DNA of 64,000 bases from assembly GCF_038432375.1 (NCBI RefSeq), contig NZ_JBCAUS010000006.1, positions 1-64,000 of the forward strand, in the 5' to 3' direction. Shown here in pieces: positions 41,672-57,568 of this stretch. A model generated the notes under the pieces. The model had not been told where the DNA came from. It searched no databases and saw nothing but the letters and a program-made list of their open reading frames with translations. The DNA comes from Methanococcoides sp. LMO-2 (lineage in GTDB: Archaea; Halobacteriota; Methanosarcinia; Methanosarcinales; Methanosarcinaceae). Made by a program: the position numbers and the translations under genes. Positions within the stretch are counted from its first letter, which is position 1, and the number at the start of each line of letters is the position of its first letter.

Positions 41672-43075
41672 TTAAGCAGTGGTTTCCCTGAACTTGTCAC
41701 AGCTGTTGATGTTGATACCGAGGAGTTTCTCGATGTTCATCTTAGCTGCAATACCCTTTGCACAGCCTGGTACAGAGGTGATTACACCGACGTCGAGTTC
41801 TTCCCTAAGCTCCCTCATGACATACTCATCAGAGAGATCCACGGTTGAAACACCAAGTTTCTTTGCAACATAGTCCTTTGCTTCACCGATTCTCATGTTC
41901 TTGTCGAACTGCATCCTTGCAACAAGGTCACCAGCTGCCCTCATACCGGTCATACCGGATGCCATAATGTGTGAGATTGGCATACCGAGAGGGTCACCGA
42001 CACCGATCTATATACCGTCGACGCCTGCGATCTCGACCATTGCCTTGCTTGCCCTGGTTACTGCATCTATTGGTGGGGTCTCAAGCATTGGGATACCACC
42101 GACACCCATACCCATATCTACGTGACATGGAATAGATGATGCCTCAACAGCTGCCTTCATGAATGTAACTGATCGACCAAGGTTCCATGCGGATGACTTG
42201 CTGGTGTTGGTGTTACATACCGGACCGAAGACGTTTGCTCCTGCCTTTGCTACAAGTGGTGCCTGCTGGTGTGGCCACAGACCTGCAAGTGTTGTACCAT
42301 CGTACTCAAGTTGTCCGTGCATACCGAGAACGAGTTCTCCTGCCATACCTGCTTCAATGTAGATACCAGGGAATTCTTTCCTCAGTGCTTCGATAGCGTT
42401 AAGGGATGCATACATGTCACCGTCACCGGCTGCACCGATGGTATCGAAGTTGACACCGTCGCCACCAACATGCTGGAGTCTCTGCATGATCCAGACCATG
42501 TCACGGATTCCGTGGTCACCAGCTTTCTGGATGGATTCCTGAGCTTCGGAGATCTTGAATGCTTTCATCAGGTCACCAGGGTTCTCGAATGGACCATCTG
42601 GTGTGTAGTACAGACCCATGTTTGGCATTGCACCGTAGAGAAGAGGTACGACCATGTTCTGCTGGCAGACTTCCATTGTCTGCTGTTCCTGTGCGATTAC
42701 TGGCTTGACAGGCTTGAAACTGTAATCGATGTGACCGAGTTCCATTGTATCTGCACCAAATGCACGCTCGTGCATCATTGCACCGGTAAGTCTGCTTGCA
42801 GGGATACCTACACCACTGTTACCCTGGTCACCGTCAATCCTGATAGTACCGATGTCGTGTGTTACAGGAACTTCCATACCAGGCTCAACACCAACGATCC
42901 TGTTAGGGTTGATGATGATCTCAAGCATCTTGTCCATCTGGTCTTCGGTAAGTGCTGGGATGTCACCAAGGTCTGCTGCATCTGCGGAACCTGCCTCGAT
43001 GTCAGCAAGAATATCTTCCTTACTCATGAAGATCCTTGCACCGTCACCCATTCTTAAGAAATATTCTGTTGCCAT
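41672..43075 (-). CDS. mtbB: Dimethylamine methyltransferase MtbB with in-frame UAG (pyrrolysine)
   Basis: Transfers a methyl group from dimethylamine to the corrinoid protein MtbC. The frame runs from ATG 43075 (GGGGTT 6 nt upstream), is crossed by TAG at 42010-42008 as codon 356, and continues to 41672, giving 467 aa, the usual family length. The codon falls in the family context [22 protein letters not shown], where Methanosarcina MtbB carries pyrrolysine. The downstream frame is conserved to the end, so this is decoding and not a broken gene. pylT/pylS are not in this window but must exist. Nineteen nt separate it from mtbC. Confidence 0.97.
42008..42010 (-). other. Pyrrolysine UAG codon of mtbB
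   Basis: In-frame amber codon 356 of mtbB, read as pyrrolysine in this family. Confidence 0.95.
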
Positions 43076-43738: not shown

Positions 43739-44093
43739 GTTACAACCTCCAATTAATTTGTGGAATATTTACCACGTAATTATGGTCAGGATATGCTCCT
43801 CACCACCATAAGATGAAAAAACAGGATTATATATAGCATAATTTGATTCGGAAGTTCGACAGCTATGGGAGATAGAAAACATAACGAGAAATGACAAGGG
43901 GTGTTGGATATTCCAAAGGCATGAGAATTTCCAAAGGCTTTGGTATATATAGTAAATCGAACGATAAGGAGTAAACAACATCAAGAGACATATTTACAGT
44001 AAATGGCAGAGCGATACCACTGAACCAATTCTGCCAAAAAGAACAACCGAAAGAATCATTAACATTAATACTTGATTTTATAGAGGAGTCTCG
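43739..44093. promoter_or_regulatory. Divergent promoter region between mtbC and its candidate regulator
   Basis: On the minus strand a TATA-like CTATATATAATCC at about 43826-43838 serves mtbC and implies an untranslated leader of about 65-75 nt. On the plus strand ACTTGATTTTATAGAGGAG precedes the regulator gene. No perfect palindromic operator was found by eye. Confidence 0.55.
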
Positions 44094-51716: not shown

Positions 51717-51739
51717 GATGAGTGAAAAGTTCACTCATC
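51717..51739 (-). terminator. Terminator of the exporter operon
   Basis: Perfect 10-bp stem GATGAGTGAA/TTCACTCATC (3-nt loop) overlapping the stop codon, followed on the minus strand by ATTTTCTTTTT. Confidence 0.75.
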
Positions 51740-52870
51740 CTTGCTGCTACCTGAAGCCCTGCTGCGGTATACTAAATAAGCACCGCCCGCAACAACTATG
51801 AGTATCACTGCGCCAATGATGATGCCAGTCATACCGGTACCACTGTCATTTGCAGATGCAGGAAGGACCTCCGTCTTGATCTTCACAGTATCCGAAATCC
51901 TGTCGTGTCCGTCAGTATCCTCGTACTTGATCTCACTGTTCAGTGCATATGCTTTTGCCACTGCGAGGTCGTCTACCTTCAGCCTGAACACTGCAACAGT
52001 GCTCTCACCGGCATCAAGTGTACCAAGGAACGCCTGGTCGTCCGTAGTACTGAAAGGATCTGCAGCACTTATTCTGACAGTAGCATCCTTTGCAGGAAGG
52101 TCACCAACGTTCTCAAAGGTAACATATAACAGACCTTCGGAATCAGGATAAAGTTCACCGGAAACATTAGTGACCTCGAACCTTGCCTCATCCTTCACGA
52201 ATATGTCAAAGGTGGTGTTCTGTGTACCCATATCATACCAGAGTCCGACCTCCATATTAGTAATTCCAAGATCTGTCTCATTGTCACCATTGATCTGTAC
52301 GTTCTTCTGGTATCCGTAATACAGGTCAAGGCGCATTGGGTAGCTTCCCGGTTCCGCGTTATTTGATATCTCGATATTGAAACTGACAGGAGAATCGGTC
52401 TTCTGACCTGTTACGAGGGTTCCTGCTTCCTGAGGACCGGACTTAACTTTAACAGCAGGATCAAGAGGTGTCAGGATCGCAACGATACCGATTGCTGTGG
52501 TCCTCTGGGACTCGTAGGACATCTCAGTACTTTGCAGTTTCTGTTCAAGAGCATCGAGATTGAAGTCATCCTCCTCTGACCTGAAACCAGTGATCAGACC
52601 TTTGTTCATAAGATCAAGGTTCAGCGTGACAGTATCACCGCGTTCGAACTCATTGTCGCCGAGAAGGGTCGCTGTCACATCCGGACCACCAAATACAGTA
52701 TAGTAATTCTCATCAAAATTGAAGAATTCTGGAAGTTCGGCGTTGGCTGCCGTGAACTCGCCATTCGATGGCAGTGTGGAAGATGCATGTACAGGTGCTG
52801 CAAAAAGCAACAGTACAGCAAGTAAGGCCATAACTGGCAAAGCGTATCTGGAATCTGTCATTTTAAACAT
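51731..52870 (-). CDS. Membrane-anchored surface protein (COG1361-type), B
   Basis: 379 aa. Signal peptide about 1-30 (ends PVHASS), extracellular beta-rich domains with CARDB-like features (VTFENVGDLPAKDATVRISA, GTLDAGESTVAVFRLKV), and a C-terminal membrane helix (about 348-368) before a short charged tail. Similar in layout and motifs (GxPDVTATLLG..FERGDTVTLNL) to the protein encoded just upstream, so the two are paralogues. Such proteins often accompany RND exporters in methanogens and may form the outer part of the complex. Confidence 0.75.
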   Translation of the reverse strand: MFKMTDSRYALPVMALLAVLLLFAAPVHASSTLPSNGEFTAANAELPEFFNFDENYYTVFGGPDVTATLLGDNEFERGDTVTLNLDLMNKGLITGFRSEEDDFNLDALEQKLQSTEMSYESQRTTAIGIVAILTPLDPAVKVKSGPQEAGTLVTGQKTDSPVSFNIEISNNAEPGSYPMRLDLYYGYQKNVQINGDNETDLGITNMEVGLWYDMGTQNTTFDIFVKDEARFEVTNVSGELYPDSEGLLYVTFENVGDLPAKDATVRISAADPFSTTDDQAFLGTLDAGESTVAVFRLKVDDLAVAKAYALNSEIKYEDTDGHDRISDTVKIKTEVLPASANDSGTGMTGIIIGAVILIVVAGGAYLVYRSRASGSSKDE

Positions 52871-52918: not shown

Positions 52919-54025
52919 TTACTTTTTTTCATCCTTCCTGCGTATCGTATTGTATCCCATGTAAGCTGCCACCAGAAGTATTCCTGCAAGTGCCAGCGTG
53001 GTGATGCTTATTCCGGCATCCCTTGACTTGAGCGGGACCTCAACAATAATGTTGTCCGAGAACTGGATCTCACCATCCTCATCACAATACTTTATCTCAC
53101 TGTCAATACCGTAATCCTTCTCCACAGCAGAGATCTCTGCAGCAATGTCGAATGATGCAGTCTTGCTATCCCCCGGTGCAATCGTACCAAGGTTCACAAT
53201 TGACCTATCCGAACTAAGCGGTTTCATAACAATTATGCGAGCAAAAGAATCAGTGGCCTCAACCTCACCAACATTTGTGTAAGTAACGTTGACGACACCT
53301 GACTGCCCGGATGTCAGCTCACCCTCTACATCGGACACAACAAACTTTGCACCCGGCTCGATCATAACAGGGATCTGAAGGGTCGTATTCCTTGTCTTGT
53401 AGAAGGTTGTGTGATCAAGATCAGGAATACCCAGTCTCACAGTGCTTCCATCGGTCATCTCCACTTGGCTCTGGAACTCATAATTGACAGGCAATAAGAG
53501 CATGTAAGTGCCAGCCGGTGCATTGTCGGAAATGGTAATGGTAAAGGACATCGGATTGTCCGGCAATACTCCAGGGTACAGGCTGTCAAGTGTCTGGATG
53601 CTCGTGGTCGGATCGACCTCTATATAATCTGTAGTCGATACCATCTCAGCCTTTAAGCCAAATGCAGTGGTCCTCAAGGACTCATATTCGATCTCTTTCA
53701 GGGACTTTGCATGATCACCATTGTTGGTATCAACATCAGTCTTGGCCTTGAAACCATACAATACACCCCTGTTCGAAAGGACAACGCGCAACTGAGCCGT
53801 CTCACCCCTCTCGAACTCAGGTGATCCCAGAACAGATGCATAAATATCGGGTTCACCATAGGCATCATAATAATTGGTAGAGAACTCATAGGTAGGCTGC
53901 AGGTACTCTTTCGCTCCTGCCACTGGAGATGCAGTGACCACGAACAAAGCCGCGATCAGCAGTACAGCCACCATGACCCCTGAATTCACATGTCTGTTTT
54001 TCTGTTTGTTTTTACAGTTAATCAA
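52919..54025 (-). CDS. Membrane-anchored surface protein (COG1361-type), A
   Basis: 368 aa. Signal peptide about 1-37 (VAVLLIAALFVVTASPVAGA), extracellular domain with YGEPDIYASVLGSPEFERGE and VNVTYTNVGEVEATDSFARI, C-terminal helix about 340-360 followed by RRKDEKK. The ATG overlaps the RND exporter stop by 4 nt, so it is made in step with the exporter. Function probably structural or ligand-capturing at the S-layer side. Confidence 0.75.
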   Translation of the reverse strand: MINCKNKQKNRHVNSGVMVAVLLIAALFVVTASPVAGAKEYLQPTYEFSTNYYDAYGEPDIYASVLGSPEFERGETAQLRVVLSNRGVLYGFKAKTDVDTNNGDHAKSLKEIEYESLRTTAFGLKAEMVSTTDYIEVDPTTSIQTLDSLYPGVLPDNPMSFTITISDNAPAGTYMLLLPVNYEFQSQVEMTDGSTVRLGIPDLDHTTFYKTRNTTLQIPVMIEPGAKFVVSDVEGELTSGQSGVVNVTYTNVGEVEATDSFARIIVMKPLSSDRSIVNLGTIAPGDSKTASFDIAAEISAVEKDYGIDSEIKYCDEDGEIQFSDNIIVEVPLKSRDAGISITTLALAGILLVAAYMGYNTIRRKDEKK

Positions 54026-56409
54026 AAGGCATCAGCCTCCGGGTCACTATTATGTTTTGTTAATTCTATCTTTTCTATAATATCATCGAATGATCCGTCA
54101 GGTATTATCTTTTTTGCCTTCCTCCTTTCACGGAAGTTATCGAGCAATACCATCACAGGCGGGAAGATCACAAATGTTGCAAACAGGGCAAGCCCCACAT
54201 CTATTACAGTGATAACACCAAAACTGCTGATGATATTGAAATCAGAAGCTATCAGTGCGCAAAAACCGAACAACGTTGTAAGCCCGGAAGTTATGATCGC
54301 TTTTCCGATCTTAACACCTGCTTCGGTCATTGCTTCTTCAGGAGTTGCACCTTTGCTCTTTTCCTCGAAGTAGCGCTCCATCATAAGTACGGCATACTCT
54401 GAGCCCACACCGAGGATCAGAGCCCCCAGTGTAGCTGTCATGGGAGTGTACTCCATGCCCATCAGATACATCAGTCCTCCGGACCAGCCCACAACCATGA
54501 ACATGGTCACCACCGGAACAAGGGCTTTGAGAAAATCACGGTATATGAGGAGCAAACCGCCGAATACTAGCCCCAGTCCAAGGTATGTCATGAAGACCCG
54601 GCCCGAAGTAAGGGCTCCGATGACCTCAATGAACACAACACTGTTTCCGGTGATCGTAGCGCTCATACCGGGAGGCGGGGCCATCCAGAGCATATCATCC
54701 CTTATAACGTCTGCCAGCAACTCGATACCTTCCATTCCAAGGCTTCCCATGGCATCCCCGATGTTCAGGTTGAGCAACAGCATGTTCTCGCCATACATGA
54801 AACGGTCCTTCTGCTGATCAGGCATCTGTTCATACAGTGACCTTATCTCAGCCTCACTTCCGGGGATCACACCATTGTTCATTGATTTAATGACGCTGGC
54901 CATGCTTTCCGCCCCAAGGACACTGTTCCGGTTGTCCACTTCATGAGCACTGAACTCATCCATCCATTTCAGGGTCTCAGGATCAGCAACATTGTCTGTT
55001 TTAACAATGATGTTCAACTGGTCCTCCCCACCCGTGATATCAGACAGGTGCTTCAGGTCCATCAATGCCGGCAGATCCTGCGGGACAAAGGTCTCCGTAT
55101 CTGTCTGAATAGGGACCTGGGTGTCCGCAGCCAGACCGCCTGCGCAGATAAGAACAGCAATTGATAGTATCATGAAAGGATGATTTATGGTGAAGTGGGT
55201 CGTACGCCCAAGCAACCTATCAAGAATATCCGGCCCGGACTCACCGGAAGTTTTGGATGATGATTTAGAATTGTTCTTACCTTTCAGGGAAAAGCTACCA
55301 AATTTCTCTTTACGTATGGACTGCATGTTGTCAAGTCCATATATCACGGTCACTCCTACGAACAGTGAGGCGAGGAAGCACATCACAATTCCTATGAGAA
55401 GCAGTTTTGCAAAGTCCTGTATCATAGGCACACTTGAGGTCACCAGGGAAAAGAAACCCAGTGCAGTAATGATAAGTGCGATCAATACTGCCGGACCGGT
55501 GTGCTTGATAGTATCCACCACAGCCTCTGCCGGAGTCTCACCACGCTCGAGCTCCTCCTCTATACGGTTGTGGAACTGTATGGCATAATCTATGCCCAAC
55601 CCTATCAATACAGGGAATGCTGCCATTGATACCATGGTCATCGGGATCTCCAGATAGCCCATGGCACCGAAGGTATAGATGATACCCAAAAGTACGATAG
55701 CAAGTGGCATCAATCTCCACCTGACATGGCCAAAAACAAGATACAGAACAATGATCATCAGGATGACTGAAAGTCCGAGAAGGACAGCCATACTGGACAT
55801 CATCGCATTGTTCATGGAGACCATGAATGCCGGATCCCCGGTTACTATTATATTATAATCAGGAGGGAACTCTGCCAGAGATACCGAGGTCTCGACCTCC
55901 CTCAAGATCTCCTGTTTCTGCTCATCGCTTACTGACCCTGCAATCTCAACATAGATAAGTGAATGAGTACCATCAGGCATCAATTCTGCAGGAACATAGT
56001 TGGTAATAAGAGATTCCAGTTCCATCCTGTCCTCAGGAAGTGCGGATTCACCGGTTAAAGCAAAATTGGCATCCCTGACAACTCCTGCAACACTTTGAAC
56101 ACTTACCACACCGGGTAGCGACGAAGACATTTTATCCAGCCGATCCATCGCCTGCAACAAAGCCGGATCGTTTACCTGACCATCCTCCACCATTACAACA
56201 ATGGCTTCCGTACCAAAGATGTTCATATAAAGGTGATCGAAATCCTGATACAATTGTGACGTCTTCTCAACAAATGTTTCAGTCCCCGATTCCATGGAAA
56301 TGTTCTGCGCACCCTGAGCAGAGACAAGGACAAATAATAATGCTACTATAATTATAGGGATAGTGTTGTTCTCAATAAAGATCCCCAGTTTTTCAAATAC
56401 ATTTTTTAT
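54022..56409 (-). CDS. RND superfamily exporter (MMPL/HAE3 type)
   Basis: 795 aa when read from ATA 56409, which lies 8 nt after GAGGAGG (56424-56418). The residues gained (KNVFEKLGIFIENNTIPIII and a membrane helix ending VLVSAQGAQN) are the expected N-terminus and first transmembrane helix of the family; the first ATG in frame (56295) would lack that helix and has no ribosome site. Two repeats of an extracellular loop plus six helices, with SSD-like GLGIDYAIQFHNRI and LGVGSEYAVLMMERYFEEK motifs carrying the proton-relay Asp/Glu. The substrate is unknown, possibly isoprenoid or other lipophilic compounds. Preceded by marR. Confidence 0.88.
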   Translation of the reverse strand: MKNVFEKLGIFIENNTIPIIIVALLFVLVSAQGAQNISMESGTETFVEKTSQLYQDFDHLYMNIFGTEAIVVMVEDGQVNDPALLQAMDRLDKMSSSLPGVVSVQSVAGVVRDANFALTGESALPEDRMELESLITNYVPAELMPDGTHSLIYVEIAGSVSDEQKQEILREVETSVSLAEFPPDYNIIVTGDPAFMVSMNNAMMSSMAVLLGLSVILMIIVLYLVFGHVRWRLMPLAIVLLGIIYTFGAMGYLEIPMTMVSMAAFPVLIGLGIDYAIQFHNRIEEELERGETPAEAVVDTIKHTGPAVLIALIITALGFFSLVTSSVPMIQDFAKLLLIGIVMCFLASLFVGVTVIYGLDNMQSIRKEKFGSFSLKGKNNSKSSSKTSGESGPDILDRLLGRTTHFTINHPFMILSIAVLICAGGLAADTQVPIQTDTETFVPQDLPALMDLKHLSDITGGEDQLNIIVKTDNVADPETLKWMDEFSAHEVDNRNSVLGAESMASVIKSMNNGVIPGSEAEIRSLYEQMPDQQKDRFMYGENMLLLNLNIGDAMGSLGMEGIELLADVIRDDMLWMAPPPGMSATITGNSVVFIEVIGALTSGRVFMTYLGLGLVFGGLLLIYRDFLKALVPVVTMFMVVGWSGGLMYLMGMEYTPMTATLGALILGVGSEYAVLMMERYFEEKSKGATPEEAMTEAGVKIGKAIITSGLTTLFGFCALIASDFNIISSFGVITVIDVGLALFATFVIFPPVMVLLDNFRERRKAKKIIPDGSFDDIIEKIELTKHNSDPEADAF

Positions 56410-56429
56410 GCTGGTAGCCTCCTCGTCCG

Positions 56430-56936
56430 TTATTGTTTATTCTTAGATTCAAGAGAACATTTTTCATCGAGCAGTTCCACCGATCGGTCGTACATATGAC
56501 GATGGAATTCGATCAATAAGATCTCGGCCTCAAGAAGCTTGTCAAGCTTTTCACCATCCACATCATCCATGCACATTTTTACGACCGAAACCATTTTCTT
56601 GAAGACCCTCCCGATCTGTTCAATGCCTTTTTCAGTAACAGATATCAGGACCTTCCTACGATCAGAGGGATCGTCTTTTCGAAAAACAAAACCCTCTTTC
56701 TCAAGGTTATCGATAAGACTTGTAACACTGCTCTTTTTCAGGTCAAGGAACCTGGCAAGTGTAGAAGGCATGATCTCACCTTCCCTCTATATCAGGAGAA
56801 GTGCCCTGTTCATGGTTTTGTGCGCACTTGTACGCCCTTCCTCTTCCAGGCAACATTCCGTCATGTTACCCTCAATTTTTCTTTTGAGATGTTCCATCTC
56901 AAGATGGAGTTTGATGAGTTTCTCGATCTTATCCAA
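56430..56936 (-). CDS. MarR-family regulator with in-frame TAG codon
   Basis: Starts TTG 56936, 6 nt after GGAGG (56947-56943). Frame of 168 codons interrupted by TAG at 56789-56787, codon 50. Upstream part: LDKIEKLIKLHLEMEHLKRK to MNRALLLI; downstream part: REGEIMPSTLARFLDLKKSS, VTSLIDNLEKEGFVFRKDDP and SDRRKVLISVTEKG, the complete MarR winged helix. The codon sits where the family often has Tyr (LLLxYREGE). Since this organism decodes TAG as pyrrolysine in mtbB, a full-length protein could be made. Alternatives: nonsense mutation, or reinitiation at ATG 56771 giving 113 aa. Likely controls the downstream exporter operon. Confidence 0.7.
56787..56789 (-). other. In-frame TAG codon in the MarR gene (candidate pyrrolysine)
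   Basis: Amber codon 50 of the 168-codon MarR frame; reading frame and family similarity continue without shift on both sides. Confidence 0.5.
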
Positions 56937-57568
56937 ATTATACCTCCCGAATCAAGTATTCGGTGTTGAACTTTGATAATTAGATAATCAAATTGTTTGA
57001 TAAACTAATGATTCGATTTTCTAATATTCAAATTTGTATATAAGGCTTGTGCCTTTGTCCACGAGTATCATCATATATTTGGCAGCCTGTCGATATATGC
57101 GCGCCATATAATTCAAAAGAAATTGACAGTTATAAAAGAAAATAATACAGATCGGTTTTAAAAAAACAGTATGCATATCCACAATATTGGTTTAAATGAA
57201 TCAGAATGAATTGAGATAAAAGAGTTGGAGGAGGAGCATCATTAGACACGCCCCCTCGTTTGGAGTCAGCCCCTAAAAGGAGTGATACTATAAAAAGATA
57301 TTTGTCAATGATTATTGACTATATTTAATAGAGCCAATTAATAAAATTAAAATTAGACTAAATTAATATAAATAGTAAAAAATGGATTACATCTTCAAAA
57401 TATAAAACTGCAAACCCATAAAATCTAATAAAGGGCCTATGAGCTAATCCCGGAATAATGTGCAGAAACCCTAGTATCATTCGGTCAGAGAATTTTACAA
57501 TAGTATTATATACCTACCAACGCGAAATAATAATGGGTAGCGTTTCTAAAATAAAGGGAGTTTTACAC
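56937..57568. other. Intergenic region between marR and the second mscS
   Basis: No gene seen. Near marR there is a promoter with operators (listed separately). At 57227-57345 two short strings AGGAGGAGC and AAAGGAG each lead into tiny frames of about a dozen codons without ATG, probably decayed DNA. TATA-like TTATATAC at about 57505-57513 probably belongs to mscS. Confidence 0.4.
56972..57044 (-). promoter_or_regulatory. Promoter and palindromic operators of marR
   Basis: TATA-like CTTATATAC at about 57036-57044. Just downstream in the direction of transcription lies the perfect inverted repeat ATCAAA-TTG-TTTGAT (56987-57001) and a further half-site TTTGAT at 56972-56977. This is the position expected for autorepression by a MarR dimer. 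Confidence 0.5.

Follow-up and report, generated by a model that had tools for sequence, protein, structure and literature searches.

A MarR-family regulator gene of Methanococcoides with an in-frame TAG codon predicted to be decoded as pyrrolysine

The MarR gene and its operon

The window, a 64,000-nt stretch of the genome of Methanococcoides sp. LMO-2, carries on its reverse strand a gene for a MarR-family regulator, together with its predicted promoter and operator and the genes for a transporter and two secreted proteins (Table 1). The original prediction described a frame with a TTG start, a TAA stop and a lone TAG at codon 50; all of this was confirmed, the TAG being the sole internal stop of the frame (56936-56430), and the Shine-Dalgarno sequence is given here as GGGAGG. 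GGAG(G/A) followed by a TTG or GTG start is present in 10 of 10 MarR orthologues.

When the TAG is read through, the product matches the Pfam MarR family (PF01047) at 52.2 bits (cut-off, 24.6), and the match runs across codon 50, in agreement with the proposal that the frame is one continuous MarR protein apart from the TAG. Since the match spans residues 44-96, codon 50 lies inside the DNA-binding domain. An AlphaFold2 model of the read-through product (pLDDT 85.7) has the complete MarR fold, in the family order alpha1-alpha2-(b)-alpha3-alpha4-wing-alpha5-alpha6, with helices at residues 3-33, 38-52, 57-64, 68-80, 102-122 and 128-166 and strands at 84-86 and 98-100. Codon 50 falls near the end of the second modelled helix (38-52). 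Searched against the PDB, the model matched 305 chains at E <= 0.001, with MarR-type regulators ranking highest.

The 31-bp inverted repeat was found at the same place, as the best repeat, in 9 of 10 orthologous loci and is weaker in G023. Its outer arms vary in pairs between genomes (ATTAG/CTAAT, GTTAG/CTAAC and ATTCG/CGAAT), a compensatory pattern, and the repeat is kept alike in genomes with and without the TAG. It resembles an autoregulatory MarR operator and is predicted to act as one.

The transporter gene also lies directly 3' of the MarR gene in the orthologous stretches read. No ATG, GTG or TTG occurs among codons 1-47 of its open frame; at the transporter start, the orthologues have a Shine-Dalgarno-like sequence and then ATA, and in the window GGAGG precedes ATA 56409-56407. 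Based on this arrangement, the transporter likely starts at the ATA, and a start assigned by standard gene callers would leave its first transmembrane helix incomplete. Two further conserved genes, each in three species, seem to start at near-cognate codons behind strong Shine-Dalgarno sequences: a corrinoid-protein-like gene 5' of mtbB (reverse strand, near 43770), with an apparent ACG start after GGAGGTTGTAAC, and a thermosome-like gene (G000:C6, near 315630), with an apparent ATC start after GGAGGGCTAAAT.

Table 1. Features of the MarR locus and the mtbB control in the window
Feature	Position	Strand	Remarks
TATA-like box TTATATA(T/G)	57037..57043	-	Kept in 10/10 loci
31-bp inverted repeat ATTAGTTTATCAAAC-A-ATTTGATTATCTAAT, predicted MarR operator	56979..57009	-	Between TATA-like box and start
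Shine-Dalgarno GGGAGG	56943..56948	-	6 nt 5' of TTG 56936
MarR-family regulator	56430..56936	-	168 aa with TAG as residue; TTG start; TAA stop 56432-56430
In-frame TAG, codon 50, predicted pyrrolysine	56787..56789	-	Near C-terminal end of helix alpha-2, winged-helix domain
MMPL/HAE3-family RND transporter	54022..56409	-	TIGR00921, 676.8 bits; PF03176; directly 3' of MarR
Membrane-anchored secreted protein, same apparent operon	52919..54025	-	No family match
Second membrane-anchored secreted protein	51731..52870	-	Weak NEW3-domain match
mtbB, dimethylamine methyltransferase	41672..43075	-	PF09505, E = 2e-252; in-frame TAG 42010-42008

Codon 50 among orthologues and the selection around it

Orthologues of the MarR gene were identified in 10 of 11 Methanococcoides genomes, sampled at one genome per species. 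The remaining genome, G022, had no match for the gene, which is thus either dispensable or missing from that assembly. The proposed alignment of orthologues for TAG or Tyr at codon 50 revealed TAG in 4 of the 10 (the window's own genome, G000, with G024, G025 and G018), sense codons in the others and Tyr in none. G024 is a 90% relative of the window genome, and G018 and G025 are at ∼70%. Two close relatives have TGG (G020) and CGG (G019), and the burtonii/alaskense group has AAG (G017, G023 and G021) or AAA (G016). Among 24 aligned MarR sequences, the site is TAG in four and otherwise W, R, K, A or G, with Ala or Gly in the more distant family homologues. The expectation that MarR proteins commonly have Tyr at this site was therefore not borne out, either in the 24 aligned sequences or in the 10 orthologues. 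Because the identical codon is TAG in four species, a chance origin is excluded, and none of the four TAG-bearing genes has a further stop or a frameshift. We also noted a MarR homologue in a second genus of the family (L115, G037:C17:158700-160200, frame from base 505) whose in-frame TAG sits elsewhere in the gene, around helix alpha-1.

G020, which has TGG, falls among the TAG-bearing species in the tree of the MarR gene, which implies either two gains of TAG or one gain and at least one loss. The codon changes take a minimum of 5 steps, and TAG, AAG and CAG are equally parsimonious as the ancestral codon. The gene trees conflict, with pylS pairing G000 with G019 and MarR pairing G000 with G024, and the MarR gene may therefore have moved between species. 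The transporter tree differs again from both and may include paralogues. Recombination between Methanococcoides species at the MarR-transporter locus (54022-56936 and orthologous loci) is hinted at by these trees.

In pairs of which both members carry the TAG, we used Nei-Gojobori counts to estimate dN/dS separately for the stretch of 49 codons that precedes the TAG and for the stretch that follows it. The ratios were 0.092 before and 0.130 after the TAG for G000-G024 and 0.100 and 0.224 for G018-G025, and when both pairs were pooled, the 49 upstream codons showed a significant excess of synonymous changes (p = 1.7e-6), within a conservation depth limited to one genus and an upstream part of 49 codons. 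Judged from these counts, purifying selection is strong on both sides of the TAG in the TAG-bearing sister pairs. Both members of each pair carry the codon, so the constraint acted while the TAG was present, assuming that their common ancestors had it too. Termination at the TAG would have left one side or the other unconstrained, but both sides are constrained.

Pyrrolysine machinery and the use of TAG

All 11 Methanococcoides genomes encode PylS above the curated cut-off, and a tRNA-Pyl gene (anticodon CTA) lies beside pylS in every one. The original prediction also relied on mtbB; the gene is indeed in the window, with its own in-frame TAG, and serves as a positive control for pyrrolysine decoding in this genome.

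With TAG read as a sense codon, we counted how conserved genes terminate in a 400-kb stretch of the window's contig and in the syntenic 400-kb stretches of G024 and G018. The window's genome yielded 196 TGA and 149 TAA (∼345 genes), G018 yielded 178 TGA, 142 TAA and 0 TAG (∼320, with one more gene cut at the stretch end), and G024 yielded 166 TGA, 142 TAA and 0 TAG (∼308). There were no clear TAG terminators in the three stretches, with pylB as one possible exception. Six apparent TAG endings in the G000 stretch all belonged to short, nongenic frames, and no TAG endings occurred in the G018 and G024 stretches among alignments of >= 70 aa. Were 5% of genes to end in TAG, finding 0 in 345 would have a probability of ∼2e-8. 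The remaining internal TAGs of the 400-kb sample mostly lie 5' of a true start codon or in short nongenes; conserved TAGs well inside genes were found in mtbB, in MarR and in the gene for an FrhB/FdhB-like protein. Over these 400-kb stretches, TAG thus appears to be effectively a sense codon, in which case the MarR regulator would be made at full length with pyrrolysine.

The FrhB/FdhB-like protein, a YHS-ferredoxin Fe-S protein, is encoded on the same contig just past the window (G000:C6:76554-77750, L117). Its TAG lies inside the FrhB_FdhB_C domain (PF04432) and is kept in 6 of 6 species of the window's clade; in the burtonii group the gene has no internal stop. This protein is a stronger candidate for a nonmethyltransferase pyrrolysine protein than MarR. 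In pylB (G000:C6:212027-213292, L065), a TAG at frame codon 379 is kept in three species. It lies near the expected PylB end and is followed by a 42-codon frame that overlaps the apparent pylC. This TAG may be either a rare TAG terminator or the entry to a pyrrolysine-dependent extension of a pyrrolysine biosynthesis enzyme.

Decoding of codon 50 and known systems

We conclude, with a rough probability of 0.87, that the gene encodes an ordinary autoregulating MarR-type repressor of 168 aa whose codon 50 TAG is decoded by tRNA-Pyl, with pyrrolysine as a near-neutral residue. The original proposal of pyrrolysine decoding is strongly supported by the TAG in four species, the selection on both of its sides, the pylS and tRNA-Pyl genes carried by each of the 11 genomes and the near absence of TAG terminators. 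The ribosome would read UAG at codon 50 with Pyl-tRNA as a routine sense codon, producing a full-length repressor with pyrrolysine near the end of helix alpha-2. This repressor would control its own gene and probably the MMPL/RND transporter operon. From the sequences, we infer all three elements: pyrrolysine as residue 50, a functional repressor and the target genes. The site tolerates different residues, and pyrrolysine is therefore most simply seen as near-neutral; most likely it is a tolerated replacement, and the codon 50 TAG appears to result from drift in a genome with a reassigned code.

The TAG could instead act as a sensor, with synthesis of the repressor depending on the charging of tRNA-Pyl and the transporter operon derepressed when pyrrolysine or methylamine metabolism is low. 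The MarR repressor would then be a translational sensor of methylamine metabolism in control of an envelope transporter operon. Retention of the TAG in four species is compatible with such a role, and a bacterium, Acetohalobium arabaticum, has been reported to decode UAG conditionally (Prat et al. 2012, cited in PMC8211752). However, close relatives that share the promoter, the operator and the operon have TGG, CGG, AAG or AAA at the site, TAG apparently has no competing stop function in these genomes, and no RNA structure sets this TAG apart: folding 3' of the codon (PYLIS-like) gave no signal against shuffles in any orthologue (z of -0.4 to +1.2 in the four TAG species). As a general sense codon, TAG would give no selective switch at codon 50. 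We consider a sensor unlikely, and the suggestion that pyrrolysine charging ties the exporter to methylamine growth found no support, given the Trp, Arg or Lys in relatives with the same regulatory layout.

Termination at the TAG and reinitiation at ATG 56771, yielding a truncated protein of 113 aa and perhaps also a short upstream peptide, is very improbable. A weak Shine-Dalgarno-like GGTGAG does precede this ATG, and the truncated frame still scores as MarR (PF01047, 42.6 bits), but its match begins only at profile position 21 of 59. The GGNGAG motif encodes Gly-Glu and occurs in non-TAG relatives too, and the 400-kb sample offers no other clear case of TAG serving as a stop. The 49 upstream codons, which would be left unconstrained, are under purifying selection as amino acids in the TAG-bearing lineages. 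Starting at M56 would moreover drop alpha-1 and alpha-2 of the modelled fold; alpha-1 is part of the dimer interface in MarR proteins. Reinitiation, which had been offered as the alternative to read-through, is thus disfavored. A stop inside a domain is also the usual sign of a pseudogene, but a recent pseudogene or a sequencing error is hardly conceivable here: the same codon is TAG in the genomes of four species, a conservation that already refutes this explanation, the four genes are otherwise intact, dN/dS is low on both sides of the TAG, and the operator and TATA box are conserved.

Read as pyrrolysine, codon 50 would make this MarR protein a clear case of a predicted pyrrolysine protein that is a DNA-binding regulator and not a methylamine methyltransferase. 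The TGG, CGG and AAG codons of its relatives form a natural series that may illustrate how TAG enters ordinary genes after losing its meaning as a stop. Standard annotation of these genomes probably splits such genes into fragments or pseudogenes.

The protein has the same domain and fold as the MarR winged-helix regulators of PF01047, such as ST1710 of Sulfolobus tokodaii, MarR of Escherichia coli and Tm0710. Members of the family bind inverted-repeat operators, usually at their own promoters; the repeat predicted here would be such an operator, and a transporter gene likewise lies downstream. What sets the protein apart is the TAG that encodes a residue close to the end of alpha-2. Among the papers found, none linked MarR to natural pyrrolysine in its title or abstract. 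In 2025, Kivenson and co-workers reportedly described a "Pyl code" of archaea that assigns pyrrolysine to every TAG codon, having tested Methanococcoides burtonii among other organisms. The genomes analyzed here share two features with that code: TAG terminators are nearly absent, and TAG occurs inside ordinary genes.

Known archaeal pyrrolysine proteins are the methylamine methyltransferases MtmB, MtbB and MttB and, in some Methanosarcinales, some transposases and Thg1 (PMC8211752). The MarR gene resembles those of the Methanosarcinaceae in its in-frame TAG, its host with pylS and tRNA-Pyl and its conserved read-through product. In the methylamine methyltransferases, however, pyrrolysine is catalytic and invariant, whereas the MarR position varies, with W, R, K, A or G in homologues; codon 50 thus lacks the invariance of methyltransferase-type pyrrolysine sites. 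The variability of the site is comparable to that of the drift-type pyrrolysine cases discussed in PMC3639795. The same study mentions a TetR-family regulator of Methanosarcina acetivorans whose annotated gene contains an in-frame TAG (PMC3639795). Both proteins are transcription regulators predicted to contain pyrrolysine, but the TetR protein belongs to another family and is annotated in one species only, whereas the TAG in MarR is kept in four species.
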